NCBI RefSeq assembly: GCF_017349315.1
Contig: NZ_JAFMPP010000012.1
Span: 62,001 to 126,000, forward strand
Source: Jiella flava
GTDB taxonomy: Bacteria; Pseudomonadota; Alphaproteobacteria; Rhizobiales; Rhizobiaceae
Length of the DNA: 64,000 bases
Direction: 5' to 3'
The first letter of the stretch is position 1, and every line of letters starts with the position of its first letter. Of the stretch, positions 11,325-54,242 are shown piece by piece. The notes below the pieces were generated by a model. It was not told where the DNA came from, made no database searches, and saw only the letters and a program-made list of their open reading frames with translations. The position numbers and the translations under genes are program-made.

Positions 11325-11404
11325 ACCGGAACTGCCATTTCGCTCTCAGTCTTTGTTGAGCCGCATGATGTGACCCGAAAAGTCATGCAACGTTTCGGCA
11401 TTAT
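11306..11404 (+). repeat. Palindromic repeat B, copy 2
   Basis: Full-length B unit: GAGCGGAATGCGATGAACCG, a diverged right arm, TTGTTGAGCCGCATGATGTG, and the second hairpin CCGAAAAGT/CGTTTCGG around CATGCA. It overlaps the last codons of cbbR. Confidence 0.85.
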
Positions 11405-26634: not shown

Positions 26635-26739
26635 TACAGCATCGGCCCGAAAATCGGTATCGATTTTCGGCAAAGCACGATGCGGCGATTTAAGAGCTTA
26701 GCGACCTTTCTGCGTCCGATAGGACGCAGGGCGCATCTA
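26635..26739 (+). repeat. Palindromic repeat A, copy 5
   Basis: Full-length copy with CCGAAAATCG/CGATTTTCGG and CTGCGTCC-GATA-GGACGCAG. It joins B copy 3 directly through a shared TCTAGAG, forming an A-B composite between the transpeptidases and the pilus operon. Confidence 0.88.
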
Positions 26740-26843
26740 GAGCGGAATGCGATAAACTGGAATCGCCATTCCGCTCTAAGCCATTGTTTTGCCGCATGAT
26801 GTGACCCGAAAAGTCATGCAACTTTTCGGCACCATGCTCTAGA
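26738..26843 (+). repeat. Palindromic repeat B, copy 3 (most complete)
   Basis: Both hairpins are intact: AGAGCGGAAT ... ATTCCGCTCT as outer arms, and CCGAAAAGT-CATGCA-ACTTTTCGG as the second, closed by ATGCTCTAGA. Between them is GCCATTGTTTTGCCGCATGA. Confidence 0.88.
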
Positions 26844-35234: not shown

Positions 35235-37280
<2,046 letters not shown>

Positions 37281-37382
37281 TCTATCTCAGCCTCGCCCGG
37301 CCGCTGAAACCGGGCATGTTTCTGAAGCATTTCTTCGCCGTTGCCCCAGCGCCGGCCGAGACCGGCGCGGGCGATGCCGGTC

Positions 37383-38105: not shown

Positions 38106-39823
38106 CAGGACTCCCGAAGCGGAAGTAGGATTGAAAAGCTGGCACCGCCGAGCGCACCCTTCTCTTCGACGACGATTTCACCGTCATGCAGCTCGACGAT
38201 TTTGGAAACGATCGACAGGCCGAGACCGGTTGAGCTTTCGCCGCCGGTCGGCTGGGCCGACAATCGTTGAAAGCGCCCGAACAGGCGCAAGGTGTCCTGG
38301 GCGTTGAGACCCGGACCGGAATCGGCCACCGTCACCCGGGCATTGCCGTTGCTGCGAACGGCCTCGATCCTGATATCGCCACCGGGCGGGGCATATTTCA
38401 TCGCATTGCTGACGAGGTTGTCGATCGCTTCCGCAAGCCGGTCGGGATCGCCCTCGATCATCAAGCGCTCGGCGATCGAGATCGCGAGGCTTTGGCCCTT
38501 GCGATCGGCGATCGCGCGGCTGAGTTCGGCCGTCGTCTCGGTGATCGCCGCCAGATCGACGCTGCGCCGCTCAATGGTGATGTCGAGGGCATCGGCCAGG
38601 GCGTCGGCGATGGATCTCTCGACGATCCGGGTCATCCGTTCGGCCGAGGCGCGGATATGATCGAGCTGCTTGGCAAAGCGCTCGCGCATCTCGGTTTCGA
38701 TCGTTTCGGTCAGACTGGTCAGCATCTCGGAGCGTCCAAGGACGACCGCGATCGGATTTTTTAGATCATGGGCGATGGTGCCGAGGATTTCGTTCTTGAA
38801 GGCGTTGACCCGCTTCAACAAGGCGCGTTGCGCGCGCAGTCGTTCATTGGCGCCGGCAAGTTCAAGCGTGCGTTCGGCGACACGCGCTTCCAGTTCTTCG
38901 TTGGCCAGACGCAATTCGTCGTAGAGCCGCGCATTGTCGAAGGCGATGGCGAGCTTGGCCGAAAACACCGAAACCAGCGAGGCCTGGGTTTCCGACAAGT
39001 CGTCGGCGGTGGCGAGCGCGACCAGGATTTCCGCGCCGCTGCCGGTTTTGACGAACAGGCAAACGAGGCCGTCGTGCCGGAAGGGCTTACCGGCGCTCGC
39101 CGCATGGGCGAACAATCGGCTGCGATCGAACGGCATGCAGTCGGTGGATTCGAATTTGCCGAGGCTGGCAAGGACATGAGGGTCGGCGCCGTTGGTCTCA
39201 CGCATGATCAAGATGCCGTCGGTCTCGATCTCGAGCAGCGCGCTGATCTGGATCAACACGCCATGGGCCAGGGTCTGGAGCGAACGATCGTCGAATAGCG
39301 AGGCGGATGCGCCGACGATCATCTCAAGGCCGATTCGGGTGTCGTCGAGGCGCTTCAGCTGGTCGAAACCGCGCAGCGCCGTCGTCAGCGTGGTGAACAG
39401 TTTGTCGGCCGTCAACTCGGTCTTCGCCTTGTAATCGTTGATGTCATAGTCGACGACCACTTGGCGTTCCGGTGCCTGGCCCGGCTGGCCGGTTCGCAAG
39501 ATGATGCGGATCAGCTCGTTCTTCAGCTCTTCGCGGATGCGTTTGGCCAGTTTCAGTCCGGCATCGTCGCTCTCCATCACCACGTCGAGCAACACGACAG
39601 CCGTGTCGGGATGGGCCTTCAGAAGCTCAAAGCCCTCCTCTGCCGAGCGGGCGCCGACGATTTCCAATCCATATCCTTCGAGGACGAAATGGCGGAGCGC
39701 GAAGCGTGTGCCCTCGTGGACGACCTCGTCGTCATCAATGACGGCGAGCTTCCAACCAGGCTCGATCGCCGGCTGGCGAAGGGGGTCGTCAATCGTCGCA
39801 AATTCCAGGAAATCACTTGGCAT
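38105..39823 (-). CDS. Response regulator / histidine kinase with DUF3369
   Basis: A 572-residue cytoplasmic protein. An N-terminal receiver (about residues 25-145) has VIDDDE and the phospho-acceptor Asp about 80 in VLLDVVME; a DUF3369 (GAF-like) sensor region (about 155-310) follows, then a coiled coil (EELEARVAERTLELAGANER), HisKA with GTIAHDLKNPIAVVLG and HATPase_c with DNLVSNAMKYAPPGG and STGLGLSIV. Receiver-DUF3369-kinase proteins are known from other proteobacteria but signals are not. It heads the three-gene operon. Confidence 0.88.
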   Translation of the reverse strand: MPSDFLEFATIDDPLRQPAIEPGWKLAVIDDDEVVHEGTRFALRHFVLEGYGLEIVGARSAEEGFELLKAHPDTAVVLLDVVMESDDAGLKLAKRIREELKNELIRIILRTGQPGQAPERQVVVDYDINDYKAKTELTADKLFTTLTTALRGFDQLKRLDDTRIGLEMIVGASASLFDDRSLQTLAHGVLIQISALLEIETDGILIMRETNGADPHVLASLGKFESTDCMPFDRSRLFAHAASAGKPFRHDGLVCLFVKTGSGAEILVALATADDLSETQASLVSVFSAKLAIAFDNARLYDELRLANEELEARVAERTLELAGANERLRAQRALLKRVNAFKNEILGTIAHDLKNPIAVVLGRSEMLTSLTETIETEMRERFAKQLDHIRASAERMTRIVERSIADALADALDITIERRSVDLAAITETTAELSRAIADRKGQSLAISIAERLMIEGDPDRLAEAIDNLVSNAMKYAPPGGDIRIEAVRSNGNARVTVADSGPGLNAQDTLRLFGRFQRLSAQPTGGESSTGLGLSIVSKIVELHDGEIVVEEKGALGGASFSILLPLRES

Positions 39824-40514: not shown

Positions 40515-41324
40515 ATGCAAGCATTCGACGCACTCGATGAAGAACTCGACCGCTGGACCGCGAGCGGCCGCACGGTGGCGCTATGGTGGCGCGACGACGA
40601 TGCGGCGGGCGCCAGTGCGCAGCTGACGCGGCTGATCGGCGCCGCGCGGCGTCACCGCTTGCCGCTGGCGATCGCCGCGGTGCCCGCGACGATGCAGCCG
40701 GATCTCGTCGGAGCGCTGGCGGTGCCTGGGATCACGGTGCTGCAGCACGGCTTTGCCCATCGCAATCACGCCGGTGCCGGCATGCGGGCGGTCGAATGCG
40801 GTGGCGATCGCGCGACCAAGGCGGTCCTCGACGAGCTCGGCGAGGGCATGCGGATCTTGATGCGGACGTTCGGCGCGAGCTTCCTGCCCTTCATGGTGCC
40901 GCCGTGGAACCGGATTGATCCGCTGGTCGCGGCGGCCCTGCCGCAGCAGGGCTATTTCGGCCTGTCCGGGTTTGGGCCGCGCCTCTATCAAGGCGCCGGC
41001 GGCGGCGGCGCGACCGACGGCCAGCCGCTGGCGCTGCCGCCGCGGCTGGCGGCGATCAACGCCCATCTCGACCTTCTCACCTGGAAGGGCGGGGCGCGTT
41101 TTGCCGGCATTGAGAAGCTGATCACGCTCTTTGCCGAGCGCTTGGCCGATCGCCGGCTGCGGCGAACCGATCCGGACGAGCCCTTCGGCCTTCTCACCCA
41201 TCACCTCGACCATGACGAGGCGACCTGGTCGTTTCTGGAGCGGCTGCTCGGGCGACTCGGGGCGCATCCGGCAATCCGCTTTCAGCCGATCACCACTCTT
41301 CTTGCCGAAACTCCGATGGGCTGA
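40515..41324 (+). CDS. NodB-like polysaccharide deacetylase family protein
   Basis: A 269-residue protein. Elements of the NodB fold are visible: an acidic triplet in ALWWRDDDAAG (motif 1, about residues 24-34), the LQHGFAHRNH histidine pair (motif 2, about 78-87), and MVPPWNRID (motif 3). A C-terminal GLLTHHLDHDEATW adds histidines. It may remove an acyl group from a glycan, or act on a related substrate; no signal peptide is seen, so it is probably cytoplasmic. It heads a plus-strand run with a GNAT and glycosyltransferases, starting 3 bases before the GNAT start. Confidence 0.7.
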   Translation: MQAFDALDEELDRWTASGRTVALWWRDDDAAGASAQLTRLIGAARRHRLPLAIAAVPATMQPDLVGALAVPGITVLQHGFAHRNHAGAGMRAVECGGDRATKAVLDELGEGMRILMRTFGASFLPFMVPPWNRIDPLVAAALPQQGYFGLSGFGPRLYQGAGGGGATDGQPLALPPRLAAINAHLDLLTWKGGARFAGIEKLITLFAERLADRRLRRTDPDEPFGLLTHHLDHDEATWSFLERLLGRLGAHPAIRFQPITTLLAETPMG

Positions 41325-41327
41325 GCG

Positions 41328-42197
41328 ATGGCGGCGCACATTCGCCCAGCGGGCCTTGAGGACATCGACGCGGTCGCGGGGCTTCTCAATGAACGGATGA
41401 ACGCCCGCATTCCAATCGAGCGATGGCGGCGGATCCTCGATTATCCGTTTCGCCCGCCGGAGGTCGAGCGTGGTTGGCTGGCCGAGGATGCCGGACGCAT
41501 CGTCGGCTTCATGGGTACGATCTATTCGGACCGGCCCACCGCCAAGGGAATACGGCGCTTCTGCGATCTGTCGTCCTGGTATCTCCTGGCCGATTATCGC
41601 GGCAGCGGCGTCGGCGACGATCTCTTGCGGTCGGGCATGGCGAAGCCGGATGTCACCTATCAGACGATGACCGCTCGCCGTGCCACCGGTCGCAAGATCC
41701 GCGCGCTCGGCTTTTCGGTGCTCGATTCCACCCGCAGCCTGTTTCGCCCCGGCGCCAATCCCGGCATGGGCGGCTTGCGGCTCATTGCGGACGAGACGGC
41801 CATCCGCGAAAAGCTCACGGCGGCCCAGCGCCAAAGGCTCGACGACCATCGCGGCCTTGATATCCATCACGCCTATCTGGAAAGCGACAAGACCGGAACG
41901 GGCACCTGGCTCGTCTGGCAGCGCAAGCTGAAGGGCGCGGCGATCGCCTATCACGAGGTGCTGCACGCCTCCGATCTCAGTTTTCTCTCCCAGCATGCGA
42001 GCGCAATCGCCGATTGCGTCTGCACCGGTGAGGCGGCGGTGCTTGCCGTCGACACGCGGATGCTCGATGAATGCGCCGACAAGGGCGTCGTGGAGACGAT
42101 CCCCTTGGCGCGCTGGTATCGCTCGCCGGACGTCGCGCCTCGCGATATCGATCATCTCTACAGCGAAGTGCTGCTGCTCGATCAAAAGCTGCCCTGA
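41328..42197 (+). CDS. GNAT family N-acetyltransferase-like protein
   Basis: A 289-residue protein with an N-terminal GNAT domain: HIRPAGLEDIDAVAGLLNER, then WLAEDAGRIVGFMGTIYSDR, and the acetyl-CoA loop segment YRGSGVGDDLL, with MTARRATGRKIRALGF in place of the usual final helix. The C-terminal 130 residues are not recognised. It starts 3 bases after the deacetylase stop, so the two are likely co-translated. A glycan or sugar-nucleotide substrate is suggested by neighbours only. Confidence 0.7.
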   Translation: MAAHIRPAGLEDIDAVAGLLNERMNARIPIERWRRILDYPFRPPEVERGWLAEDAGRIVGFMGTIYSDRPTAKGIRRFCDLSSWYLLADYRGSGVGDDLLRSGMAKPDVTYQTMTARRATGRKIRALGFSVLDSTRSLFRPGANPGMGGLRLIADETAIREKLTAAQRQRLDDHRGLDIHHAYLESDKTGTGTWLVWQRKLKGAAIAYHEVLHASDLSFLSQHASAIADCVCTGEAAVLAVDTRMLDECADKGVVETIPLARWYRSPDVAPRDIDHLYSEVLLLDQKLP

Positions 42198-42771
42198 ACG
42201 GTTACGGCGACGGCGGATCGGCACGAGGCTCTTGGCCAACATCGAGTCGGCCGGTTTTGGGGCGATGATCTCGACCGGCATGATGAACAGGCTGATGACC
42301 AGCTGGACCCGGCCAGCCAGTTTTTCGCTGCCGGCATTGACACGGGAGATGTCTGCCACGATCTGCGCGGACAGCGGCCGGGGCACGGATCGGTCGATCA
42401 AAGTCTCAGCATGAGCGGGCTTGTTTCGGCACCGGGGCGCGGATGATCGTGGCTGCAGGTTCGCCGCAAAGGCCGCCGACGCAAGGCGATGCCGCACGCG
42501 ACTCTGTGTGACGCATTGGAAACACTCGCAACGGCATCATCTGTCCTTCGGCTTGTCTCTGCCACGAGATGACGGCAATCGCGGCCATGCTTGCTTGATC
42601 GGACGATGGCGACGCAATAGGAAGAATCATCGGACGGGCAGCCGGAAACGTGCCGGAGGGCAGCGGTACAACCTTCCGAAACGTCAGTATATGCCCCCCC
42701 CCCGGGGACGGTTGAACCGTCGCCCATTCGGGGTCGTCCCAGCGTCAAAACGGGCGGCGACAGGAGTTGCC
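42198..42771. other. 574-base region with a C10 homopolymer tract
   Basis: No convincing gene on either strand. At 42694-42703 there is a run of ten C followed by four G, just after an ATG (42691) that is in frame with the downstream glycosyltransferase and would add 27 residues. The tract length decides whether that ATG stays in frame. The true start of the next gene appears to be at 42772, which has CAGGAG upstream. Confidence 0.5.
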
Positions 42772-44028
42772 ATGCAGTCTCGGTCTCCCCGCATCCTGAT
42801 CTACAGCCACGACACCTTCGGCCTTGGTCATTTGCGACGCAGTCGGGTGATCGCCCAGGCGCTGGTCGATCATCGGCCGGAGATTTCGATCCTCATTGTC
42901 GCCGGCTCGCCGGTGGTCGGCTCCTTCAGCTTTCCGCCGCAGGTGGATTTCATCCGCGTACCGGGCGTCGTCAAGCTTGGGGCGGAAAGCTACGCGCCTT
43001 CCAATCCCGGCCTGTCGATCGAGGATTTGACCGAGATCCGCTCGGCGATCATCACCAAGACCGCCGAGATCTTCGATCCCGACATCTTCCTTGTCGACAA
43101 GGAGCCGCTCGGTATGCGCGGCGAGGTCGAGGCGAGCCTGAATTTCCTCAAGTCGACCGGGTGCCGGCTGGTTCTGGGCCTGCGCGACATCATGGATGAC
43201 CCCTCGCGGCTGAGCGAGGAATGGCAGCGCAAGGGCGCCTTTGCCGCCATCGAAAGCCTCTACGACGACGTCTGGATCTACGGCCTGCCGGAGATCTGTG
43301 ATCCGCTGGAAGGGATCGGGGTCTCTCAGCGGATCCGCGACCATGCCGTGTTCACCGGCTATCTACCCCGCGCCGACGAGCCCTCGGGCGCACTGCCCGA
43401 GCGGATCCGCCTCGGCGAGCAGCCTTATGTGCTTGTCACCACCGGTGGCGGTGGCGATGGGGCGCGGCTGGTCGACTGGGTGCTGCGCGCCTATGAGAGC
43501 GATCCGGCGATCGGGGTGCGGGCAAAGATCGTGCTTGGTCCATTCATGGAGACGGGCTTCGCCGCCGACTTCCAGACCCGTGCGGCCAAGCTCGACAGTG
43601 TCGATCTGATCACCTTTGCCGCCTCCATCGAACCCTTGTTCGAGGGGGCTGAGGGGGTCGTCGCCATGGGCGGCTACAACACCTTTTGCGAAATCCTCTC
43701 CTTCGACAAGCCGGCGGTGATCGTGCCGCGTCGCCAGCCCCGGCTCGAGCAGTTCATTCGGGCGTCGCGGGCTGCCGACCTTGGCCTTGCGCGCATGTTG
43801 CTTGACGATGAGGTCGAGGATGCCGCGGTGATGGCGGAGGCAATTCGAGCGCTGCCCGGTCAGGCCGGTCCGCAGTCGACGGCGATCCCGAAGCTGCTCG
43901 GCGGTGTCGAGACGATCCGCCGGCTGGTCGATGCGATCATTGCCGATGGTCGCCCCAGCGGCACGACGGGCCGCCGCGAGACGGCGGATGATCTGCGATA
44001 CCGGATGGCCGGCGTCGGCCGGTCATGA
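42772..44028 (+). CDS. GT-B fold glycosyltransferase with GHLRR motif (first)
   Basis: A 418-residue protein starting ILIYSHDTFGLGHLRRSRVI, a nucleotide-sugar transferase start of the MurG/GT28-like type, with a C-terminal donor site LFEGAEGVVAMGGYNTFCEI and VIVPRRQPRLEQ. No membrane spans. Acceptor and donor are unknown. It overlaps the next glycosyltransferase by four bases. The third transferase downstream shares the same GHLRR and GYNT signatures. The start with CAGGAG at 42772 is chosen over the in-frame extension through the poly-C tract. Confidence 0.8.
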   Translation: MQSRSPRILIYSHDTFGLGHLRRSRVIAQALVDHRPEISILIVAGSPVVGSFSFPPQVDFIRVPGVVKLGAESYAPSNPGLSIEDLTEIRSAIITKTAEIFDPDIFLVDKEPLGMRGEVEASLNFLKSTGCRLVLGLRDIMDDPSRLSEEWQRKGAFAAIESLYDDVWIYGLPEICDPLEGIGVSQRIRDHAVFTGYLPRADEPSGALPERIRLGEQPYVLVTTGGGGDGARLVDWVLRAYESDPAIGVRAKIVLGPFMETGFAADFQTRAAKLDSVDLITFAASIEPLFEGAEGVVAMGGYNTFCEILSFDKPAVIVPRRQPRLEQFIRASRAADLGLARMLLDDEVEDAAVMAEAIRALPGQAGPQSTAIPKLLGGVETIRRLVDAIIADGRPSGTTGRRETADDLRYRMAGVGRS

Positions 44029-45197
44029 GGATCTCGTTTTATGCGCCGATGAAGGCCCCGGACGACCCGGTGCCGTCGGGCGACCGGCAGGTTGCCCGCC
44101 ATCTGATCGCCGCCCTGCAAAAGGCCGGACATACGGTGTCGATCGCCAGTCGCTTTCGTAGCTATGATCGCGGCGATCCGCAGCGCCAGGAGCGGCTGGC
44201 CGCGATCGGAAGCCGGCTCGCCCGGAGGCTGGCGAGGCGCTGGGACAAACCCGTGGCGAGGCCGGACCTCTGGTTCACCTATCACCTTTATCACAAGGCG
44301 CCGGACCATCTCGGGCCGGTGGTCAGCGCGGCGCTCGGGATCCCCTATGTCGTCGCCGAAGTGTCCGTCGCCGGCAAGCAGCGCGGCGGACCGTTTGACC
44401 GCGGCTATCGCGCCAGTGTCGACGCCCTGCGCCGCGCCGATCTCGTGTTCAACCTCAATGCCGACGACGCGGCCGGCATCGCCCCGCATCTGCGGCCCGG
44501 GGTACCGATGGCGGGCCTGTCGCCGTTCACCGATGTCGCCCCCCTCGCCGCGGCACGGGCCGAGCGCGACAAGGTTCGCGATCATCTGGCCGGCCGGTTT
44601 GGGCTCGATCCGGCGGTGCCCTGGCTGGTGACCGCGGCGATGATGCGGGCCGATCAGAAACTTGCCTCTTACCGGCTGCTCGCCGAAGCCCTGTCGCAGC
44701 TTGGCGGCGAGCAGTTCGCCCTGTTGGTCGCGGGCACGGGGCCGGCCGAGGCGGAGGTACGCCAGGCCTTTGCGAAGGCGGGCGTCTCCGCCGTCTTTCT
44801 CGGCCTTGTTCCCGACAGCGGGATGCCGGCGATTCTCGCCGCGTCGGATCTTTATGTCTGGCCGGCGATCAAGGAGGCCTTCGGCATGGCGCTGGTCGAG
44901 GCGGGCGCGGCCGGCCTGCCGGTGGTTGCCGGCAAGAGCTGCGGCGTTGCCGGCGTCGTCGAGGATGGGATCACCGGCCTCTTGGTGCCGCAGAATGAGG
45001 CGCTCGCCTTCGCGACGGGCGTTCGCGCATTGCTCGATCTCCGACGTCGCGCGGCATATTCCGACGCGGCCAGGCGGCAAGCGCAGGCGCACCACTCCGT
45101 CGAGGCCGCCGCATCGCGGCTCGACGCGGCGCTGCGCGAGGTTTCAGGGCGATTTGCGAGCGGCGAAACGTGCAATGCGATCGTGAGTCAGGTCTGA
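44025..45197 (+). CDS. Glycosyltransferase family 4 protein
   Basis: A 390-residue GT-B retaining transferase. N-terminus MRISFYAPMKAPDDPVPSGD is typical of sugar transferases, followed by VARHLIAALQKAGHTVSIAS; the C-terminal GT4 signature is YVWPAIKEAFGMALVEAGAAG, then GVAGVVEDGITGLLVP. It sits between two GHLRR transferases with ATGA and TGATG overlaps, so all three are translated as one unit. Product unknown. Confidence 0.87.
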   Translation: MRISFYAPMKAPDDPVPSGDRQVARHLIAALQKAGHTVSIASRFRSYDRGDPQRQERLAAIGSRLARRLARRWDKPVARPDLWFTYHLYHKAPDHLGPVVSAALGIPYVVAEVSVAGKQRGGPFDRGYRASVDALRRADLVFNLNADDAAGIAPHLRPGVPMAGLSPFTDVAPLAAARAERDKVRDHLAGRFGLDPAVPWLVTAAMMRADQKLASYRLLAEALSQLGGEQFALLVAGTGPAEAEVRQAFAKAGVSAVFLGLVPDSGMPAILAASDLYVWPAIKEAFGMALVEAGAAGLPVVAGKSCGVAGVVEDGITGLLVPQNEALAFATGVRALLDLRRRAAYSDAARRQAQAHHSVEAAASRLDAALREVSGRFASGETCNAIVSQV

Positions 45198-46336
45198 TGC
45201 GGGTTCTCTTTCATGTCCAGCATCTTCTCGGCGTTGGCCATTTGCGGCGCGGCGAGTTGATCACCCGCGCGCTGGCCGCCCGCGGCATCGAGGTGACCGT
45301 CGCGCTTGGCGGCCATCCGGTACCGGAAATGCCCTTTGCCGATGCCGACGTGGTGGCCCTGCCGCCCGTCTCGATCGAGGGCGCGAATTTCAAGACGCTC
45401 TACGATGACGCCGGCCAGCCGATCACCGAGGCCTGGAAGGCGGCGCGGGTGAAGGCGCTCATCGACGTCTATGACGCGGTGCGCCCGGATGTCGTCTTGA
45501 TGGAGATGTTCCCCTTTGGCCGCTGGCGCTTCCGCTTCGAGCTGGTGCCGCTGGTCGAGCACGTCAAGGCCGACAACCGCCCGGTCCAATGCGTCACCTC
45601 GGTGCGTGACATCCTGGTCGCAAGTCAGCGTCCCGACCGGGCGACATTTGCGGCGCGATTTGCCCGCGACCATTTGTCCGCGGTGCTCGTCCACGCCGAT
45701 CCAACGCTCTTTACCTTCGACGAGACCTATCCCCATGCCGGCGAAATCGCCGATCTCATCCATTATACCGGCTATGTCACCGAGGATGCTGAGCGCGGGC
45801 CAGGGGAGCGGAACGGCAAAGTGGTCGTCTCGGCTGGTGGCGGGGCCGCGGCGGGGTCGCTGCTGCGCACCGCACTGGCGGCGCGCGAGCTCTGCCCGCC
45901 AACCATTCGTGACCGAGACTGGCACATCCTCACCGGGGCTCGGGCGAGCGACGCCGACACGGCCGCCCTCGTGGCGAAGGCCGATCGGCGCACCATCGTC
46001 GAGCGCTTCTCGCCGCGTTTTCAGGCGCTGCTCGACGGCGCTGCGCTGTCGATTTCCCAGGCGGGCTACAACACCGTGATGAATCTGTTGCGAGCCAAGA
46101 TTCCGGCTGTCGTCGTACCCTATGAGGACGGCGGCGAGACCGAGCAGGCCTTTCGCGCCATGCGGCTGGAACAGCGCAATCTGCTCAACGTGGTGAACGG
46201 CGCGGCGCTGTCGCCACAAACTCTGGCGGCTGCGATCGTTTCGGCCGATGCCCGCCGCGATCGGCCGGTCTCGAGGATCGACCTCGAAGGGGCAAGCGCC
46301 AGCGCGGCCGCAATCGAACGGCTGATCCGGACCTGA
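45197..46336 (+). CDS. GT-B fold glycosyltransferase with GHLRR motif (second)
   Basis: A 379-residue paralogue of the first transferase: VLFHVQHLLGVGHLRRGELI at the N-terminus, SVRDILVASQRPD in the middle, and LLDGAALSISQAGYNTVMNL followed by VVVPYEDGGETEQAFRAMRL at the C-terminus, the donor-nucleotide site. The start shares bases with the GT4 stop (TGATG). Together the three transferases could build a short glycan or decorate a lipid or protein. Confidence 0.8.
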   Translation: MRVLFHVQHLLGVGHLRRGELITRALAARGIEVTVALGGHPVPEMPFADADVVALPPVSIEGANFKTLYDDAGQPITEAWKAARVKALIDVYDAVRPDVVLMEMFPFGRWRFRFELVPLVEHVKADNRPVQCVTSVRDILVASQRPDRATFAARFARDHLSAVLVHADPTLFTFDETYPHAGEIADLIHYTGYVTEDAERGPGERNGKVVVSAGGGAAAGSLLRTALAARELCPPTIRDRDWHILTGARASDADTAALVAKADRRTIVERFSPRFQALLDGAALSISQAGYNTVMNLLRAKIPAVVVPYEDGGETEQAFRAMRLEQRNLLNVVNGAALSPQTLAAAIVSADARRDRPVSRIDLEGASASAAAIERLIRT

Positions 46337-46481
46337 GGGCAATGACGGGCTTGCGGGGCTTCAGGGCGAATTCCTCTGGCGAAGCCGCCCGGGCATCGTA
46401 ATAATGACCATGTCATGGGATGATCGGCACGCTTGTCGGTGCGACCGCGCCACGGCACAGGATAGGACAGGGGAAAACGGC

Positions 46482-48464
46482 TTGGCGGGTGACTCGGGCG
46501 TGCTTTCGCCGCCGGCAACGACGGCGGTTTTGAACGATCGCGCGGCGGGTGCCCTCTTATCGGTCGAAAACCTGTCGGTCGAATTCCGCTCCATGGCCGG
46601 TATCACCAAGGCCGTCACCGGCTTTTCGATGACGATCGCGCCGGGGCGCACCGTGGCGTTGGTCGGCGAGTCGGGATCCGGCAAGTCGGTCACCTCCCAG
46701 GCGATCCTCGGCCTGCTGCCGAAGAACGGCGTCGTCACCTCCGGAAAGATCCAGTTCCGCGACAAACAGCTCGGCCTGGTCGATCTCGCCAAGATCCCGC
46801 GCGCCTCGCCGCAGTTTCGCTCGATTCGCGGTCGTTCCATTGCGATGGTGTTTCAGGAGCCGATGACGGCGTTTTCGCCGCTCCACACGCTGGGCGATCA
46901 GATCGGCGAGATGGCGGCTGCCCACCGCAGCGGGTCGAAGGCCGAGATTCGCGAGCTGACCGCCGAAACCCTGCGTCTGGTGCGCTTTCCCGAGCCGGAA
47001 CGGGCAATGCGGATGTATCCGTTCGAGCTCTCCGGGGGCTTACGCCAGCGCGCGATGATCGCCATGGCACTGATGTGCCGGCCGCCGCTGTTGATCGCCG
47101 ACGAACCGACGACCGCCCTCGACGTGACGTTGCAGGCGCAGATTCTCAAGCTCTTGAAGGATCTCCAGGCCGAGCTCGACATGGCGGTGCTGTTGATCAC
47201 CCACGATCTCGGCGTCGTCGCCAATCTCGCCGAAGAGGTGGTGGTGATGCATCACGGCCGGATCGTTGAATCCGGCCCGGTCGGAACGATCTTCTCGGCG
47301 CCGTCGCATCCCTATCTCGTCTCGCTCATGAAGGCCGTACCGGATTTTTCCGACGCCGAGCGTCGGCGTTTGACCCCGATCCGCGAGATCCGGATCGACG
47401 CCGACATTCTGGTCAAGCCGAAGGCGCGGGGGCCGCTGGGCGCGCCGCTGATCACGGCGAGAGGTTTGCAGAAGAGCTTCTCGCTGCGCGGTGATCGCCG
47501 CCTTGTCGGCCGCGCGCCGGCCCGTGTCATCCACGCGCTGAACGACGTCTCGCTGACGGTGCGTCGGGGCGAATGCCTCGGCCTCGTCGGTGAATCGGGC
47601 TCGGGGAAAACGACCCTCGCCCGCGCCCTGATGCGGGCCGTGGCGGTCGATCGGGGCGAGATCGTACTGCATGGCGAAGGGGCGCCGGTCGATCTCGTCA
47701 GCGCCGACCGCGAGGCGTTGTTCAAGGTCAGGAAGCGCATGCAATATGTCTTCCAGGATCCGTTCTCCTCGCTCGATCCGCGCATGACGGTCGGGGCGAT
47801 CTTGTCCGAGCCGCTGGAAATTCATGGGCTCTGCGCCAGCTCCGATCGCCGCGAGCGGGTCGAGCGGCTGCTGGCGGCCGTCGGCCTCGATCAAAGCTTT
47901 GCCGGCCGCTATCCGCACAGTTTTTCCGGTGGTCAACGCCAGCGGATCGGCATCGCCCGGGCGCTGGCCCTGGAACCCGAAATCCTCATCTGCGACGAGC
48001 CGGTGGCTGCCCTCGACGTTTCGGTTCAGGCGCAGATTCTCAATCTCTTGAAGGATCTGCAGCGCCTGTCGGGCCTGACCTATGTCTTCATCACCCACAA
48101 TCTCGCGGTGGTGAATCACATCGCCGACCGCATCGTGGTGATGTGCGACGGGGCGATCGTCGAAATGGCGCCGCGCGAGGCGCTGCTGCGCCGGCCGCTT
48201 CACCCCTATACCAAGCTGCTGATTGAGGCCGTGCCCCACGCCGATCTCGGCCGGCCGTTGGATTTCAGCAACTTGCCCGAGGTCGGGCTGATCGGGCGCC
48301 GCGACTGGCCGGCGCCCTTCGCCGTGCGCCCGGACCAGCCGCTGCCGCCGCTGCTCGAAGCCGGTCCCGACCATTTCGTGCGGGCCAAGAGCCTCGATGG
48401 GCTGCTCTTGCGCGGTGACGATCGACATGACGCCGTACGTCTTGACCGCGAGGTCGGCGCATGA
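46482..48464 (+). CDS. Fused double ABC ATPase, oligopeptide/microcin C type
   Basis: A 660-residue protein with two complete nucleotide-binding domains, both with intact Walker A (GESGSGKS and GESGSGKT), signature (LSGGLRQR; FSGGQRQR) and Walker B followed by ADEPTTALD and CDEPVAALD. This is the DppD-DppF / YejF pattern of peptide importers, with the oligopeptide-type end HPYTKLLIEAVPH. No permease or binding-protein gene is nearby, so partners must be elsewhere. TTG 46482 has AGGGG upstream; an ATG at 46404 is open but adds non-conserved residues. It overlaps the next gene by four bases. Confidence 0.85.
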   Translation: MAGDSGVLSPPATTAVLNDRAAGALLSVENLSVEFRSMAGITKAVTGFSMTIAPGRTVALVGESGSGKSVTSQAILGLLPKNGVVTSGKIQFRDKQLGLVDLAKIPRASPQFRSIRGRSIAMVFQEPMTAFSPLHTLGDQIGEMAAAHRSGSKAEIRELTAETLRLVRFPEPERAMRMYPFELSGGLRQRAMIAMALMCRPPLLIADEPTTALDVTLQAQILKLLKDLQAELDMAVLLITHDLGVVANLAEEVVVMHHGRIVESGPVGTIFSAPSHPYLVSLMKAVPDFSDAERRRLTPIREIRIDADILVKPKARGPLGAPLITARGLQKSFSLRGDRRLVGRAPARVIHALNDVSLTVRRGECLGLVGESGSGKTTLARALMRAVAVDRGEIVLHGEGAPVDLVSADREALFKVRKRMQYVFQDPFSSLDPRMTVGAILSEPLEIHGLCASSDRRERVERLLAAVGLDQSFAGRYPHSFSGGQRQRIGIARALALEPEILICDEPVAALDVSVQAQILNLLKDLQRLSGLTYVFITHNLAVVNHIADRIVVMCDGAIVEMAPREALLRRPLHPYTKLLIEAVPHADLGRPLDFSNLPEVGLIGRRDWPAPFAVRPDQPLPPLLEAGPDHFVRAKSLDGLLLRGDDRHDAVRLDREVGA

Positions 48465-51163
48465 AAGCCGACGACGAACTCGACGAAAGCATCTTCCGCT
48501 ATGTCTGGCGCTACACCAGGCGCCAGCAGATGTGGCTGTTCGGCGTCCTCTTGTTGTCGCTGCCGCTCTATTATCTGACGCTCGATCTACCCAAACGCAT
48601 CGTCAACGGCCCGATCCAGGGCACATGGCCGGCCGGCCACACCGAGACGCTGTTCGCCTTCTCGATCCCGTTGCCCGGCTTTCTCGGCGGCGGCACGATC
48701 CATTTGTTCGACGGCATCGCGCTGGATCGCGTGGGCGTGCTGATCGGCCTGTCACTGACCTTTTTGTTCTTCGTCATCGTCAACGGCCTCTTCAAGTTCT
48801 ACCTCTCGACCTACAAGGGCAAGCTCGGCGAGCGACTGTTGCGGCGGCTGCGATTTCAACTGGTCGATCGCGTGCTGCGGTTCCCGACGGGACGATTCAA
48901 GCAGGTGCGCGGCTCCGAGATCGCCTCGATGATCAAGGACGAGACCGAGCCGGTCGGCGGCTTCGGCGGCAGCGCCTTCGCCGATCCGGCGCTGCTCATG
49001 AGCCAGGCGTTGACGGCGCTCGTCTTCATCGTGATGCAGAATTTTTGGCTCGGCCTCGTCGCCGCGCTGATCGTCGCGGTGCAGATCATCATGATTCCGC
49101 GGATGCGCCGGCGGCTGGTGGTTCTGGCGCGCCATCGCCAGTTGACTGCGCGGATCCTGTCGGGCCGGATCGGCGAGGTGGTCGAAGGCATCGTCTCGAT
49201 CCGCACCAACGACACCTCCAATTACGAGCGGGCGGAGATCGGCGAGCGGCTCGGCAAGATCCTGAAGATCCGCTACGACTTCTATCAGTGGAAGTTCTTC
49301 GTGAACTTCCTCAACAATCTGCTCGCCCAGACGACGCCCTTCATCTTCTATCTCGGCGGCGGCTATCTGGTGATCACCGGCCGGCTCGACATCGGCCAGC
49401 TGGTGGCGGTCATCGCCGCTTACAAGGATCTCCCCTCGCCGCTGAAGGAACTGATCGCCTGGGACCAGTTTCGGGTCGACGTGCAATCGAAATACGCTCA
49501 GATCCGCGAGCAGTTCGTGATCCCCGATCTGGTCGCGGCCGAGTTGCAGCAGATCAGCTTCGATGCGCCGCCGCGACTCGATGGCGAGGTGACGGTCAGC
49601 AATCTGAGGATCAGCGACGATTCCGGCAATGAGCTGCTTTATCCGACGACGGTGAAATTTGCCCCCGGTGAGAGCGTCGCGCTGGTCGGGCCGCCGGGCG
49701 GCGGCGGCGAATATCTTGCCGAGGCGCTGGTGCGGCTGCTGCAGCCGAGCGGTGGGCGGGTGGCGTTCGCCGGCGCGATGCTCGATACCATGCCGGATGC
49801 GATCCCCGGCCGGCGCCTCGGCTATTCGGCCTCTGGCCTGTTTCTGCCGCAGTTGAGCGTGCGCGATTCCCTGACCTACGGCTTGAAACACGCGCCGCTG
49901 CGGCGCGAGGAGCGGACCGACCGCGCCGAAATGCTGCGGCTCGAAGAAGCCCGGCTGTCCGGCAATATCGACCTCGACATCCGCGACGACTGGATCGACT
50001 ATGAGGCGGCGGGCGTGTCCGGTGCGGATGCGCTGCCGCAGCGGCTGGCCGACGTGCTGGCGATCGTCGAGCTGCGAACCGAGATCGCTCGCCTCGGCCT
50101 GCGCGGCAAGTTGCCGGAGATGTTGGCAGAGGATGTCACCGGTCGCATCCTCGACGCGCGGGCGCGCTTTCGCCAGCGGCTGATCGAAGGCGGCGACGAG
50201 GACTATTTCGAGAGTTTCGATCGCCGTCGTTATTCCGACTATGCGACGGTGTTCGAGAATCTCGTCTTCGGCATCGCCGATCCCGATGCGGAGGCCGAGT
50301 GGCCGATGGCCGATCGCCCGTCGGTCCGCGCGGCACTCGAAGCGAGCGGCCTCGATGACAAGCTCGTTCGGGTCGGCCGGCAGATCGCCGAGACGCTGAT
50401 GGATATCTTCGGCGATCTGGCTGCCGACAATCCGCTGCTCGACGACATGGATCTGATGTCGCCCGACGAGGTCGAGATCTATCGCGCGGCGTTGCGCCGA
50501 AGCGAGGGCGATGGCAAGCGTGAGACCCTTGACCGGCAAGCGTTTCAACGTCTCGCCTTCGGTTATGTCGAGCCGCGCCATCGCCTCGGCCTGCTCGAGC
50601 CCGAGCTGCAGCAGGCGATCGTCGCGGCTCGCGACCACTTTGCCGACGGGCTCGAGGCCGATCTGCGCGGCGCGGTGTCCCTGCACGATCCGGCCGGCAT
50701 CAACCGGGCGGCAAGTCTGCAGGACAACATCCTCTTCGGCCGTATCATCACGCGCTATGCCGAGGCGGCGGGCCGCATCAACACGGTGTTGGCAGAGACG
50801 CTGCGCGAGGCCGGTCTGTTCGATGTGGTGTTCGATCTCGGGCTCGACTTCGATATCGGCAGTGGCGCCAAGCGGCTGTCCGCCGGCCAGCAGCAGAAGC
50901 TCACCTTGGCGCGGGCGATCTTGAAGCGGCCGGACGTTCTGGTCCTCAATCGGCCGCTGTCGGCGCTGGATGGCGAGACGCAGCGCCGGATCACCGCTGC
51001 CGTCCTCAATGCCCGTGAGGAGCTCGGCATTGCCGGCCAGACCGTCGTCTGGGTGCTGACCCATGCCGATCATGCCGAGCTTTTCGATCGGACCATGGCC
51101 TTCCGCGACGGGCGGCTCGACGCAAACGAAGAGCGACGGGCGCCGTCGATGGCGGTCACGTGA
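48461..51163 (+). CDS. ABC transporter-like protein with degenerate ATP site and large insertion
   Basis: A 900-residue protein. Residues about 1-350 form an exporter-type membrane domain (spans near 25-42, 92-112, 175-212 and 290-320). The nucleotide domain begins near 375, but its Walker A is GPPGGGGEYL (410-419), lacking the lysine and Ser/Thr, and its Walker B is VLVLNRPLSALD, with Asn and Arg replacing Asp-Glu. The signature LSAGQQQKLTLARAIL (806-821), D-loop and the H-loop VLTHADH are kept. Between them lies an insertion of about 270 residues. ATP hydrolysis at the Walker site is unlikely. It overlaps the double ABC ATPase gene upstream by four bases. Confidence 0.82.
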   Translation: MKADDELDESIFRYVWRYTRRQQMWLFGVLLLSLPLYYLTLDLPKRIVNGPIQGTWPAGHTETLFAFSIPLPGFLGGGTIHLFDGIALDRVGVLIGLSLTFLFFVIVNGLFKFYLSTYKGKLGERLLRRLRFQLVDRVLRFPTGRFKQVRGSEIASMIKDETEPVGGFGGSAFADPALLMSQALTALVFIVMQNFWLGLVAALIVAVQIIMIPRMRRRLVVLARHRQLTARILSGRIGEVVEGIVSIRTNDTSNYERAEIGERLGKILKIRYDFYQWKFFVNFLNNLLAQTTPFIFYLGGGYLVITGRLDIGQLVAVIAAYKDLPSPLKELIAWDQFRVDVQSKYAQIREQFVIPDLVAAELQQISFDAPPRLDGEVTVSNLRISDDSGNELLYPTTVKFAPGESVALVGPPGGGGEYLAEALVRLLQPSGGRVAFAGAMLDTMPDAIPGRRLGYSASGLFLPQLSVRDSLTYGLKHAPLRREERTDRAEMLRLEEARLSGNIDLDIRDDWIDYEAAGVSGADALPQRLADVLAIVELRTEIARLGLRGKLPEMLAEDVTGRILDARARFRQRLIEGGDEDYFESFDRRRYSDYATVFENLVFGIADPDAEAEWPMADRPSVRAALEASGLDDKLVRVGRQIAETLMDIFGDLAADNPLLDDMDLMSPDEVEIYRAALRRSEGDGKRETLDRQAFQRLAFGYVEPRHRLGLLEPELQQAIVAARDHFADGLEADLRGAVSLHDPAGINRAASLQDNILFGRIITRYAEAAGRINTVLAETLREAGLFDVVFDLGLDFDIGSGAKRLSAGQQQKLTLARAILKRPDVLVLNRPLSALDGETQRRITAAVLNAREELGIAGQTVVWVLTHADHAELFDRTMAFRDGRLDANEERRAPSMAVT

Positions 51164-51356
51164 GGTCGCGGGCGGCGATTTTTGCCACGTCGCTGGTGCG
51201 TCGCGCGCGCCATGCTATTGATCGGGCTGGCCGCGGCGTGCCAAGCTTGGCAACGATCGATGCCGCGCCGGGCGTTGTGTTTGACGGTGCCGAGCGGATA
51301 AAGCCCTGGCAAGGAGATGAGGACGTGCCCGGCGTGTCACACGGGGATCGAAGACG

Positions 51357-51827
51357 ATGATGTTGAAATCCGAAATCGATCTTCTTCGGGCGGTCCCGCT
51401 GTTTGCGGCGATCGATCCGAGCCGGTTGAAGCTCATCGCCTATACCGCCGAGACCGTCGCCTATCGGCAGGGCCAGGTTCTGTGCCGGCAAGGCGATGCC
51501 GGCGATGCCGCCTATGTGCTCATCGAGGGCGAGGCCGACGTCTCGATCGCTGCCGATACGGGAGATTTCGTGGTCGCGGCCCTGAAGCCCGGCGACGTCG
51601 TCGGCGAGATTGCGATTCTTTGCGACGTGCCGCGCACCGCCACCGTGCGGGCCACGACGCAGCTGTCGGCGCTCAGGGTGCGCAAGGAGGCGTTTCTGCA
51701 GCTCGTCAAACAGTTCCCGGAGGTCGCGACGGAAATCATGCGGGGCCTGGCCGAACGGCTCACCCACACCAATGAGGAGCTGGTGAGGGCGCGCAATCTT
51801 GCGGTGGGGGAAGGCCAGCCGCAATGA
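51357..51827 (+). CDS. Cyclic nucleotide-binding domain protein
   Basis: A 156-residue protein that is essentially one CRP-type cNMP-binding domain. The phosphate-binding cassette reads PGDVVGEIAILCDVPRTATVRA (about residues 79-99, cut here only in words) with the key Glu 84 and Arg 93; glycine turns G46 and G58 are in place. There is no helix-turn-helix, so it is not a DNA-binding regulator but more likely a regulatory subunit. It overlaps the following hydrolase gene by four bases, and a cyclase gene lies 1.2 kb downstream. Confidence 0.85.
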   Translation: MMLKSEIDLLRAVPLFAAIDPSRLKLIAYTAETVAYRQGQVLCRQGDAGDAAYVLIEGEADVSIAADTGDFVVAALKPGDVVGEIAILCDVPRTATVRATTQLSALRVRKEAFLQLVKQFPEVATEIMRGLAERLTHTNEELVRARNLAVGEGQPQ

Positions 51828-52648
51828 GCCGTTTCGAGCTGACCGTGTGGGGCGCGCGGGGCTCGATCCCGGCGCCCGCCGCCGCCAACACCGTCTATGG
51901 CAGCGACACCAGCTGCATCGAGCTGCGCTGCGGCGAACGGCTGATCTTTCTCGACGCCGGCACCGGCATCATCACGGCCGGCCGCCGGCTCTACGAGGCC
52001 CATGTCTTCGATTTCGACATCCTCCTCACCCATTGCCATTTCGACCACATCATGGGCCTGCCCTTCCTGCTGCCGCTCTATAAGGACCATGTCTCGGCCC
52101 GCATTTACGCCGGCCATTTCCTCGACGAGACCAGCTGCCAGGAAATGGTCGCGGGATTCATGTGTCCGCCCTATTTTCCGGTCAAGCCGAAGCAGTTCGC
52201 CGCGCGCATTGACTATCGCGACTTTCGCCCGCCGCAGGAGCTTGACCTCGGCGACGGCATCGTCGTGAAGACCTTTCGGCTCAACCATCCGAACGGCGCC
52301 GTCGGGTATCGCATCGACTATGACGGGCGCTCGCTCTGCTATATCACCGACACCGAGCATCAGCCCGGCACGATCGACGACTCACTGGTCGCTTTCATTG
52401 CCGGAGCCGAGGTGATGATCTACGACGCGACCTACACCGACGAAGATTTCCAGCGCTATGCCGGCTTCGGCCATTCGACCTGGCAGCAGGGTGTTCGGCT
52501 CTGCCGGGCGGCGAAGGTCGATCGGTTCGTCGCCTTCCACCATGACGTCTCGCGCACCGATTCATGGCTCGCCGAACTCGATGCGCGCATGGCCGCGGAA
52601 TTCAGTGGCGCCATGGTGGCGCGCACGGGGCTGACCCTGTTCCTCTAG
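51824..52648 (+). CDS. Metallo-beta-lactamase fold hydrolase
   Basis: A 274-residue soluble enzyme. It begins with the VWGARGSIPAP motif of phosphodiesterase-like MBL proteins, has the metal motif LTHCHFDHIMGLPF (His70, His72, Asp74, His75), a second metal histidine in FRLNHPNGAVGYRI, and the Asp of CYITDTEH, with HST in GFGHSTWQQG. Members of this type can cleave cyclic or phosphodiester bonds, so hydrolysis of the cyclic nucleotide sensed by the preceding protein is possible but inferred. The TAG stop lies at the first bases of a B repeat. Confidence 0.85.
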   Translation: MSRFELTVWGARGSIPAPAAANTVYGSDTSCIELRCGERLIFLDAGTGIITAGRRLYEAHVFDFDILLTHCHFDHIMGLPFLLPLYKDHVSARIYAGHFLDETSCQEMVAGFMCPPYFPVKPKQFAARIDYRDFRPPQELDLGDGIVVKTFRLNHPNGAVGYRIDYDGRSLCYITDTEHQPGTIDDSLVAFIAGAEVMIYDATYTDEDFQRYAGFGHSTWQQGVRLCRAAKVDRFVAFHHDVSRTDSWLAELDARMAAEFSGAMVARTGLTLFL

Positions 52649-52748
52649 AACGGAAGGCGATGAACCGTAGCCGCCATTTCGCTCCAAGCCCTTGTTTTGC
52701 CGCATGATGTGACCCGAAACGTCATGCAACTTTTCGGCCCGATGCTGT
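52648..52748 (+). repeat. Palindromic repeat B, copy 4
   Basis: Full-length but diverged: AGAACGGAAGGCGATGAACC, then TTGTTTTGCCGCATGATGTG, and CCGAAACGT-CATGCA-ACTTTTCGG. It begins at the stop codon of the MBL-fold gene and separates it from the cyclase. Confidence 0.85.
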
Positions 52749-53015
52749 AAGGCGCGACGCCCGCATCGGGAGTTGGCACAACGAAAATCCGGCCACCGGA
52801 CTGGCGGGTCCGCAGAAGAAGGCCCATATGCCTCAACGCATCGCCTCGATCGGCGCTTGCCACGACGTCGAGAAGGGATGGGTTCGAACGCCGCCCCAAA
52901 GCCGATGGTGTTGGCGCCGCGGCGCAGACGCGATGAAACATTTCAAAGCTTCGGTGCGAGTCTTCTGCGAGCGAGCGTGAAGCGCGCGCGGACGGGTCAA
53001 GAAGGTGGCGGTGCC

Positions 53016-54242
53016 ATGGGGCTTGCCGATCAAGTCAACGAATGGCTTTTGCGCGAGGCTCTCGGAGAGCCGAAGCTGGAAGATCTCTTCTACAATTTGT
53101 GTATGAAGCTGCTCGGCATCGGCGTGCCGATTTCACGCGCCCGGCTCAACTGGCCGACGCTGCATCCGTTGTTTCGGGCCGAGATGATCTCTTGGAACCG
53201 GCATGACCAAAAGGCGACGCTCGACCACTTCAACCATCAGGAAGCCAACACCGATGCCTGGCAGAAGAGCGTGCTCTGGCACATGCTGGAATATGATCTG
53301 TCGATGCTGCGGCGACGGCTCTCCGGCCCGGGCAAACTGCTCGATTTTCCCTTGCTCGGTGAGCTCGCCGCCCAGGGCTATACTGATTATTTCGTCTTGA
53401 AGACGCTGTTCGAGCAACCCGGCATGGCGACCGATTCCCGGTGGTCCGGAATCTTCGTTATCTGGGGTTGTGATCGCGAGAGCGGTTTCACCGATGAAGA
53501 TTTGACCATCTTGCAGGAAATCCAGCGCAGCCTGGCCTTGGCCTGCAAGTCGATCATCCAGTCGCAGATCACCACCAATATCGTCGAGACCTATCTCGGC
53601 CGCCAAGCCGGGCGCAGCGTGCTTGACGGCAACATCAAGCTCGGCGACGGCGCCACCGCCAAGGCACTGGTCTGGTATTCGGATATGCGTGGCTCGACGC
53701 ATTTGACCGGCACGTTGCCGAGCGAGGAGTTTCTGAAACTCCTCAACGACTATTTCGAATGCGCCGCGCGCCCGGCCATTCGCGCCGGTGGCGAGGTGCT
53801 GGCTTTCATTGGTGATGCGGTGCTGGTCATCTTTCCGCTCGAAAGCCGGGCCGAGGGCGAACGGGTGACGGCCAAGATCCTCGACGCCGTCGCTCAGTCC
53901 TTCCGGATGCGGGACACGGTCAATGCCGCACGTCGCGAACGGGGCGAAGCGGAGATCAACTTCGGCATCGGGCTGAATGTCGGAACGGTGGTGTTCGGCA
54001 ATATCGGCGTGCCGGAGCGCCTGTCCTTCACCGTCATCGGTTCAGCGGTGACGGAGGTCGAGCGGATCGAGAAGCTGACTAAGACCCTTGACGCCAATGT
54101 CCTGGCGACAGCGCAGGTTGCCGGTCTCGTGCCCGGACGATGGTCGTCGGCGGGGCACCATTGCCTGGCCGGCGTCGAGGAGCCGATGGAACTCTTCGTG
54201 CCGCTCGATTGCGGTGAAGCCGTTCTCAAAGCCGCTGAATAG
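53016..54242 (+). CDS. Class III adenylate/guanylate cyclase domain protein
   Basis: A 408-residue protein: an N-terminal region of about 190 residues resembling a GAF-type sensor (GYTDYFVLKTLFEQPGMATD; FTDEDLTILQEIQRSLALAC), then the class III catalytic domain. Metal-binding aspartates are D223 in YSDMRGST and D267 in FIGDAVLVIF. In the substrate region VIGSAVTEVERIEKL, the usual Asp is Ser343 and the transition-state Asn is Thr346, while Arg350 is kept. No membrane span. ATG 53016 is chosen with AAGGTGG upstream. It probably makes the ligand for the adjacent cNMP-binding protein, if active. Confidence 0.87.
   Translation: MGLADQVNEWLLREALGEPKLEDLFYNLCMKLLGIGVPISRARLNWPTLHPLFRAEMISWNRHDQKATLDHFNHQEANTDAWQKSVLWHMLEYDLSMLRRRLSGPGKLLDFPLLGELAAQGYTDYFVLKTLFEQPGMATDSRWSGIFVIWGCDRESGFTDEDLTILQEIQRSLALACKSIIQSQITTNIVETYLGRQAGRSVLDGNIKLGDGATAKALVWYSDMRGSTHLTGTLPSEEFLKLLNDYFECAARPAIRAGGEVLAFIGDAVLVIFPLESRAEGERVTAKILDAVAQSFRMRDTVNAARRERGEAEINFGIGLNVGTVVFGNIGVPERLSFTVIGSAVTEVERIEKLTKTLDANVLATAQVAGLVPGRWSSAGHHCLAGVEEPMELFVPLDCGEAVLKAAE

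Follow-up and report, generated by a model that had tools for sequence, protein, structure and literature searches.

What could an ATP-binding cassette (ABC) protein with degenerate ATPase motifs do between glycosyltransferase genes and genes of cyclic-nucleotide signalling? The question is raised by a 64,000-nucleotide stretch of Jiella flava DNA (contig NZ_JAFMPP010000012.1, positions 62,001 to 126,000; called the window), where a plus-strand run of ten open reading frames (ORFs) was read at 40515-54242. The ABC protein, called abcX, is encoded at 48461-51163. It is followed by genes for a stand-alone cyclic-nucleotide-binding (CNB) domain, a metallo-beta-lactamase (MBL)-fold hydrolase and a class III cyclase. 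An original prediction, made from the window alone, described the run as ten same-strand genes, which the ORF re-reading confirmed, and supposed that a cyclic-nucleotide circuit gates an ABC machine tied to a surface glycan. Judged from sequence comparison, abcX is probably a cyclic-nucleotide-controlled, ATPase-dead ABC membrane protein serving the glycan cassette.

The abcX-CNB pair in Alphaproteobacteria

With a threshold of E <= 1e-40, abcX is present in 59 of the 190 genomes sampled evenly from the class (the class draw). In a sample of 299 genomes taken across the phylum, abcX was matched in 21, and all 21 belong to Alphaproteobacteria. Gene neighbourhoods were read at 120 loci, 60 outside the order of the window (class loci) and 60 inside it (order loci); the order, assigned from the nearest named relatives, is Rhizobiales throughout (Hyphomicrobiales at NCBI). 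The 60 stretches fetched in the class draw leave out the window's own place and G157:C153, G071:C302, G178:C170 and G107:C4 (short contigs and partial matches), and the 60 places fetched in the order draw likewise exclude the window itself, together with the fragments G301, G234, G310, G266:C68 and G279:C3.

At 116 of the 120 loci (57/60 outside the order, 59/60 inside) a CNB match either follows abcX in the same orientation or shares its frame. The count becomes 117/122 if the short contigs L044 (G071), which has the CNB gene, and L043 (G157) are added. At two of the four misses (L118, L152) abcX is only partly on the contig; the other two (L096, L108) look genuine. Where the genes are separate, the stop codon of abcX and the CNB match are 0-625 bp apart (median 50). 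Both parts share one open frame at 18 of 149 loci, where eight C-termini were read and the other ten are represented by the open frame alone. Fusion is confirmed by Pfam in Azospirillum lipoferum 4B, Ruegeria sp. THAF33 and locus L098, with chains composed of ABC_membrane, a weak ABC_tran (below the cut-off in Azospirillum) and cNMP_binding.

The abcX-CNB pair is the universal core of the module. It is the only such core, because outside the order an MBL gene stands directly 3' at 0/60 loci and a cyclase is found in the stretch at 4/60. The flanks are rearranged while the pair is kept, which argues for selection on the pair. Grouping of these genes by local chance is rejected by the class-wide neighbourhoods: the module is conserved in tens of families, and the window region is one branch of an alphaproteobacterial module.

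Three fused abcX-CNB paralogues (L113, L116, L117) were observed in one genome, G154, none with a GT28 glycosyltransferase gene in the fetched stretch; the GT28a gene of this genome sits elsewhere. Subfunctionalisation of the three paralogues is possible. At L130 (G243) and L132 (G279) one in-frame TAA interrupts abcX, and the CNB gene and the glycosyltransferase cassette still adjoin; both abcX genes are possibly decaying copies.

No description of the module was found among the papers listed by full-text searches of the open-access literature, which did not reach supplementary files and in which locus-tag queries rested on guessed tags. No NCBIfam model exceeded its cut-off with abcX among the best 25 of 155. 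The annotated records opened name abcX an ABC transporter protein, and one listed record names it a hypothetical protein.

Degenerate motifs and fold of abcX

Motifs were counted in 133 full-length abcX out of 149, in the columns of one MAFFT alignment. An intact Walker A GK[ST] and a Walker B DE occur together in 0/133 sequences, so the original description of the protein as degenerate extends to the whole family. Neither motif is present in 128 sequences, DE alone in four and GK[ST] alone in one. The Walker B Asp is replaced by Asn in 79/133. The P-loop Lys is kept in 37/133, the signature Gly in 36/133 and the D-loop Asp in 97/133; in some of the fused proteins (L113, L125) no P-loop can be recognised. 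By these motifs abcX is ATPase-dead throughout the family, and with no member keeping the intact ATPase motifs it would not be an ordinary ABC machine.

The window protein (900 aa) has the ABC-exporter fold, with both the transmembrane domain (TMD) and the nucleotide-binding domain (NBD) recognised by Pfam (PF00664/PF00005) and by Foldseek. Within the NBD (residues 440-850) a helical-subdomain segment after the Q-loop occurs three times, family-wide, with 255-291 residues from the first to the third copy. Profile comparison of the copies gave E-values of 2.1e-14 (second/third), 2.7e-9 (first/third) and 3.8e-7 (first/second), and an Asn is invariant in copies 2 and 3 (133/133). Many columns of the exporter TMD are nearly invariant.

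The AF2 model of abcX, built from 21 sequences, has a mean pLDDT of 78.9 and weak stretches in the TMD. Foldseek matched it to TmrAB (E 8e-15) and to P-glycoprotein, PCAT1 and TM287/288 at E of about 1e-14. The whole chain superposes poorly (query TM-score 0.37-0.39, rmsd 14-16 A), and the fold call therefore rests on the domains and not on the entire chain. Matches in PHROGs were to generic ABC and hydrolase families and to one family of unknown function.

The CNB protein

The CNB protein (51357-51827) is 155-156 aa long, and PF00027 is the only domain found in it; Pfam gave no match to the C-terminal helix-turn-helix (HTH) that a Crp/Fnr member would have. Residues G83, E84, R93, T94 and A95 of the phosphate-binding motif are invariant in 16/16 aligned sequences, which, apart from the frame of L025, come from separate CNB genes. 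Best matches of the CNB profile in solved structures include the CNB domains of PKG, PKA and SthK. With this phosphate-binding cassette and its conserved Glu and Arg, the protein is a putative receptor domain for cyclic nucleoside monophosphates (cNMPs). The Clr regulator of Sinorhizobium meliloti is described in a passage of PMC10127613 as responsive to cAMP and cGMP alike, so that either could be the ligand here.

Glycosyltransferase genes and the importer

Upstream of abcX the window encodes the glycosyltransferases GT28a (42772-44028, Pfam PF04101), GT4 (44025-45197, PF00534) and GT28b (45197-46336, PF04101). GT28a is the phyletic partner of abcX. Among the 190 class genomes both genes are present in 56, abcX only in three, GT28a only in two and neither in 129 (Fisher p 7.5e-42, uncorrected for phylogeny); one of the GT28a-only genomes is 86% complete and the match in the other is weak (36%). 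With 5 discordant genomes, the tie to glycan enzymes supposed from the window is borne out. A GT28 gene is upstream of abcX and divergent from it at 38/60 class and 32/60 order loci, upstream on the same strand at 11 order loci and downstream at two class loci. The abcX-CNB pair frequently adjoins a GT28/GT4/GT28 cassette and an Opp-type importer.

Between GT28b and abcX lies abcD (46404-48464, start codon uncertain), an Opp/Dpp/Gsi-type double ATPase with two intact ABC domains. In Rhizobium johnstonii 3841 a co-directional run consists of cyclase, double ATPase, solute-binding protein (SBP), permease, permease, GT28, GT4, GT28, abcX and CNB. In the window genome the importer homologues are found on another contig, C7 (SBP 47%, permeases 63% and 64%), where a second deacetylase-like gene and a second GT4 are divergent from SBP-permease-permease (L191: 6602-12994). 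In the contig C7 cluster the module has its importer half, at a distance from the window locus from which it was separated. Because its homologue is contiguous with SBP and permease genes in Rhizobium, while those subunits lie on another contig here, abcD most likely drives an oligopeptide-type importer and not abcX. For the same reason abcD is judged unlikely as a partner motor of abcX, and the earlier assignment of the double ATPase to the gated ABC machine is abandoned.

In S. meliloti RCAM1750 (L122 12873-14076) the GT28b homologue is present as two overlapping unannotated frames, and its R. johnstonii counterpart is one annotated gene.

By gene counting, the module appears to correspond to the old Rhizobium leguminosarum tags pRL110046 (CNB) to pRL110055 (cyclase), and pRL110056 to the adjoining nucleotide sugar dehydrogenase. 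The latter tag is listed in a part of PMC11103875 as an O-antigen enzyme important in root colonization. On the other side of the module, pRL110043, by gene count an MFS gene, is listed for attachment in a part of PMC11406972. Neither account names a gene of the module itself. Two further leads led nowhere: pRL110044, which a passage of PMC5118466 lists as a conserved hypothetical gene connected with impaired growth and which by gene count is just beside the module, and the Dpp-like smb20141/smb20142, which the corresponding passage of PMC2651895 does not show to be this locus.

MBL-fold hydrolase and class III cyclases

The MBL-fold hydrolase (51824-52648) is RNase Z/phosphodiesterase-like and has an HxHxDH motif. 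This motif is present in 48/49 ORFs, and H70, H72, D74 and H75 are invariant in the 28 chosen for alignment A6. Nearest solved chains are RNase Z and ELAC1, then the metal-dependent hydrolase 6kns, presumably YhfI, and others. The HxHxDH metal motif makes the protein a putative class II cNMP phosphodiesterase.

Loci of one family are not independent, and family counts are given beside locus counts. Inside the order, an MBL gene follows at 29/60 loci (13/27 families), a class III cyclase match begins 2.5-7 kb 3' from the abcX start at 33/60 (17/27 families; 30 in the orientation of abcX), and the two genes occur together at 16/60 (8 families). The chance expectation, computed for the cyclase only, is 0.64 loci in 4.5 kb. 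It derives from 599 PF00211 matches, up to 38 per genome, in the 55 abcX-bearing order genomes that remain of 60 without G212, G266, G310, G301 and G234; an E-value rule was applied to this background and a bit-score rule to the cyclase matches in the loci. In the named Aurantimonad loci (L003-L018, n=16) the MBL gene follows at 16/16 and a cyclase match is present at 15/16, with an early stop in the cyclase frame of L013.

Outside the order other arrangements occur. At L093 the opposite strand has a cyclase and an MBL match at a distance of 5.8-8.4 kb. A cyclase is directly 5' of the fused abcX-CNB at L098, about 7.9 kb 5' at L110 and directly 3' of CNB, in two frames, at L104. The check set for the original prediction, whether homologues of the ABC protein keep these three genes beside them, is thus largely favourable to it: CNB is kept almost throughout, and the MBL and cyclase genes at about half of the order loci but hardly outside the order.

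Several types of cyclase stand beside abcX. The first is a soluble protein like that of the window (53016-54242), found also in R. johnstonii and S. meliloti (34% over 405 aa in the latter). The second, c14, has a different N-terminus, many of its members keep the Lys before the GD motif, and it is the best match at 16/16 order loci with both MBL and cyclase. A further group (for example L129, L136, L138, L142-L144) matches only about a third to half of the query.

In the window-type cyclase, which has an N-terminal domain, D227, D271 and R354 are invariant in 13 Aurantimonad sequences (numbering of alignment A2), as is A267; a Thr replaces the usual Asn in all but L018. D227 and D271 are taken to bind metal and R354 to act on the transition state, while A267 presumably stands at the base-selecting Lys and the Thr at the transition-state Asn. 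Other cyclases of the relatives keep the base-selecting Lys. The structure model of the window cyclase resembles bacterial class III cyclases. Its activity is uncertain because of the Ala for Lys and the Thr for Asn.

An open c14 frame of 445-512 codons lies on the minus strand between the GNAT and GT28a genes at L003, L004, L006, L007, L009 and L013-L017, and seems interrupted at L005 and L008. In the window a minus-strand remnant of 57 codons is found at this place (42216-42386; 52% identity over 60 columns). As this is the only recognisable remainder, the window has lost c14, and with it a signalling enzyme beside the module. The window genome has two PF00211 matches.

Proposed mechanism and alternative explanations

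If abcX is controlled by a cyclic nucleotide, the cyclase would make the nucleotide and the CNB protein would bind it and dock on abcX; docking is suggested because CNB is fused to abcX in some lineages. Conformational switching of abcX would depend on binding of the nucleotide in place of ATP. The protein could then pass or flip the product of the glycosyltransferases, or switch the glycosyltransferase machinery at the membrane. Hydrolysis by the MBL enzyme would end the signal. With only a remnant of c14 left in the window strain, possible sources of the signal are the non-canonical soluble cyclase and the second cyclase encoded in the genome. A wider proposal, possible but less likely than not, is that abcX represents an ABC class with a cyclic nucleotide in place of ATP as its switch. 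It would combine an ATPase-dead exporter fold and a triplicated helical subdomain, would respond to a CNB domain of its own, to which many Rhizobiales would add a cyclase and a hydrolase dedicated to it, and would control the making or translocation of envelope glycan in about one third of the sampled Alphaproteobacteria genomes.

A number of observations weigh against this mechanism. CNB appears to be genuinely absent beside abcX at L096 and L108, and L043, a short contig outside the count, has none in the 1.5 kb after abcX. The P-loop Lys persists in the minority of sequences given above, and ATP binding is retained at some degenerate ABC sites. No GT28 was found in the stretch at 20/60 class and 17/60 order loci; for the class loci, which were the ones checked, GT28a lies elsewhere in the genome in 18/20. 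The near-absence of MBL and cyclase genes outside the order means that the dedicated circuit is not universal, the cyclases beside abcX are heterogeneous, and the window-type cyclase carries the two substitutions described. CNB domains can also take other ligands, such as ppGpp in HetC (a passage of PMC10986499). Of the circuit first supposed, a near-universal CNB and, inside the order, the MBL and cyclase genes remain, but in the window the cyclase is without two active-site residues and c14 is a remnant.

One alternative is an ordinary ATP-driven glycan exporter, tolerant of the motif changes and with CNB as an accessory regulator. The exporter fold and the signature Gly, D-loop Asp and P-loop Lys kept in some of the 133 sequences agree with it. 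However, not one of them combines GK[ST] with DE, and hydrolysis is hard to imagine for the fused L113 and L125 with their unrecognisable P-loops; an ordinary exporter is therefore unlikely. A stronger competitor, possible but on the whole doubtful, accepts the dead ATPase and lets nothing move through: abcX-CNB would be a scaffold or receptor which senses the cyclic nucleotide and assembles or inhibits membrane glycosyltransferases. The ATPase-dead ABC fold, the extended helical region between the motif copies and the strict co-occurrence with GT28a, which holds also for genes at distant places of the genome, are consistent with a scaffold, whereas the many nearly invariant columns of the exporter TMD are expected of a translocation path.

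Two further explanations are both highly improbable. In a Pycsar-like anti-phage system, a cyclic pyrimidine made by the class III cyclase would activate a membrane effector with CNB, and membrane proteins are among the Pycsar effectors in a passage of PMC11224242. PADLOC matches of PycC to the cyclase catalytic domain (E 6e-18), of PycTIR to CNB (E 1.3e-18) and of the mad3 model to a short stretch of the abcX NBD (E 3.8e-7) point the same way, but they cover generic cyclase, CNB and ABC parts only, and there is no TIR domain. Of PycTIR the CNB part was matched and of PycC the catalytic part; none of the PADLOC matches bore the name PycTM. Moreover, the module is kept in tens of families, mostly with glycan genes, its near-perfect link to GT28a is unlike the patchy occurrence of defence genes, and most loci outside the order have no cyclase in the stretch. 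The other explanation makes CNB a Crp/Fnr-type transcription regulator, so that the neighbourhood would reflect local regulation only. The annotation in S. meliloti RCAM1750 ('Crp/Fnr family transcriptional regulator') agrees with it. This identity was rejected because the protein has no HTH match beside its single domain and is fused to abcX in several lineages.

Comparison with known systems

HetC of Nostoc PCC 7120 shares with abcX the combination of an ABC exporter with a CNB domain, which HetC needs in order to function (PMC10986499). It differs in that its CNB is N-terminal, that it has a C39 peptidase and that one of its ATPase residues is essential. Its CNB bound ppGpp best among the ligands tested, and cAMP did not protect it (PMC10986499). 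In abcX, on the contrary, CNB is C-terminal or separate, the ATPase motifs are degenerate and Pfam gave no peptidase match. A CNB on an ABC exporter can be essential, as HetC shows, and its ligand may be something other than a cyclic nucleotide. MFS-CNBD transporters are likewise membrane transporters with a recruited regulatory CNB; they have the MFS fold, and no cyclase or hydrolase module appears in the passage on them in PMC10710835.

The SthK channel resembles abcX as a membrane protein under a C-terminal CNB, and the CNB profile of the abcX family matches SthK chains. SthK has a channel pore, whereas the membrane part of abcX has the ABC-exporter fold. ABC-exporter-type proteins with a changed energy source or turned into a channel exist, namely the SbmA/BacA peptide transporters and CFTR. 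To our knowledge, neither has a CNB domain. The CFTR structure 8v81 is only the 47th structure match of the abcX model.

Pycsar resembles the module in combining a class III cyclase with a CNB receptor, possibly membrane-bound (in the passage of PMC11224242). Unlike Pycsar, the module has no TIR domain, contains glycan and importer genes instead and is tightly linked to GT28a phyletically. The class II MBL-fold cNMP phosphodiesterases Apyc1 and YhfI share the HxHxDH MBL fold with the module enzyme. According to a passage of PMC9117128, Apyc1 cleaves all cNMPs tested and YhfI prefers cAMP and cGMP. The module enzyme differs from both in having RNase Z and ELAC1 as nearest solved chains, and it matches NF041851 with 56.5 bits against a cut-off of 400.

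Members of Rhizobiales encode many class III cyclases, most of which are not known to have an established output. The most prevalent bacterial cyclic-nucleotide receptors are transcription factors, as stated in a part of PMC10127613. If the proposed control of abcX is true, a membrane receptor with a fused CNB would be a direct, non-transcriptional target for many of these cyclases, and abcX would illustrate how an ABC fold can dispense with ATP in nature. The module occurs in tractable organisms, R. johnstonii 3841 and S. meliloti 2011.

Gene run in the window

The nearest named relatives of the window belong to Jiella, Aurantimonas and Fulvimarina; abcX identity is 66-83% for the eleven Aurantimonad rows of the alignment and 47% for Aureimonas glaciei. 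The gene labels first given to the run were supported by Pfam for nine proteins (GNAT, GT28, GT4, GT28, double ABC ATPase, ABC exporter, cNMP_binding, MBL and Guanylate_cyc), while the deacetylase label is weak. Probable starts after correction are 42772 for GT28a and an ATG at 53016 for the cyclase.

The deacetylase candidate (40515-41324) is a protein with a WWRDDDA motif, possibly DUF2334/polysaccharide-deacetylase-like, a weak fold assignment. Neither Pfam nor NCBIfam gave a match at E 0.01, and a profile search of solved structures returned nothing useful. Among seven relatives, DUF2334 was matched in 3/7 (E 0.027) and Polysacc_deac_1 in 1/7 (E 0.13); the unrelated Autoind_bind model outscored both (E 0.0063, 2/7). 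Homologues occur in the cassette of distant relatives. The GNAT acetyltransferase (41328-42197, PF00583, 22.5 bits) was matched in the neighbourhood matrix only in Aurantimonad loci and the window.

Most junctions were first thought to overlap or to be under 10 bases. Five are tight: 3 bp between the deacetylase and GNAT genes, 4-bp overlaps at GT28a-GT4, abcD-abcX and CNB-MBL, and a 1-bp overlap at GT4-GT28b. The other four are loose (574, 67, 193 and 367 bp), so the ten genes are not obviously a single transcript. The breaks before the CNB gene (193 bp) and at the repeat before the cyclase (367 bp), already held to weaken a single operon, are thus joined by those of 574 and 67 bp. The repeat itself is real: a dispersed copy of about 104 bp in the MBL-cyclase gap (52646-52749) is 86.5% identical to 26738-26841, and shorter copies are found at 11308-11399 and 9013-9071. 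A search of the relatives' loci found no copy. Shortly before the run, the minus strand encodes a response regulator and a pair of histidine kinases, of which one has a DUF3369 domain (35235-39823).

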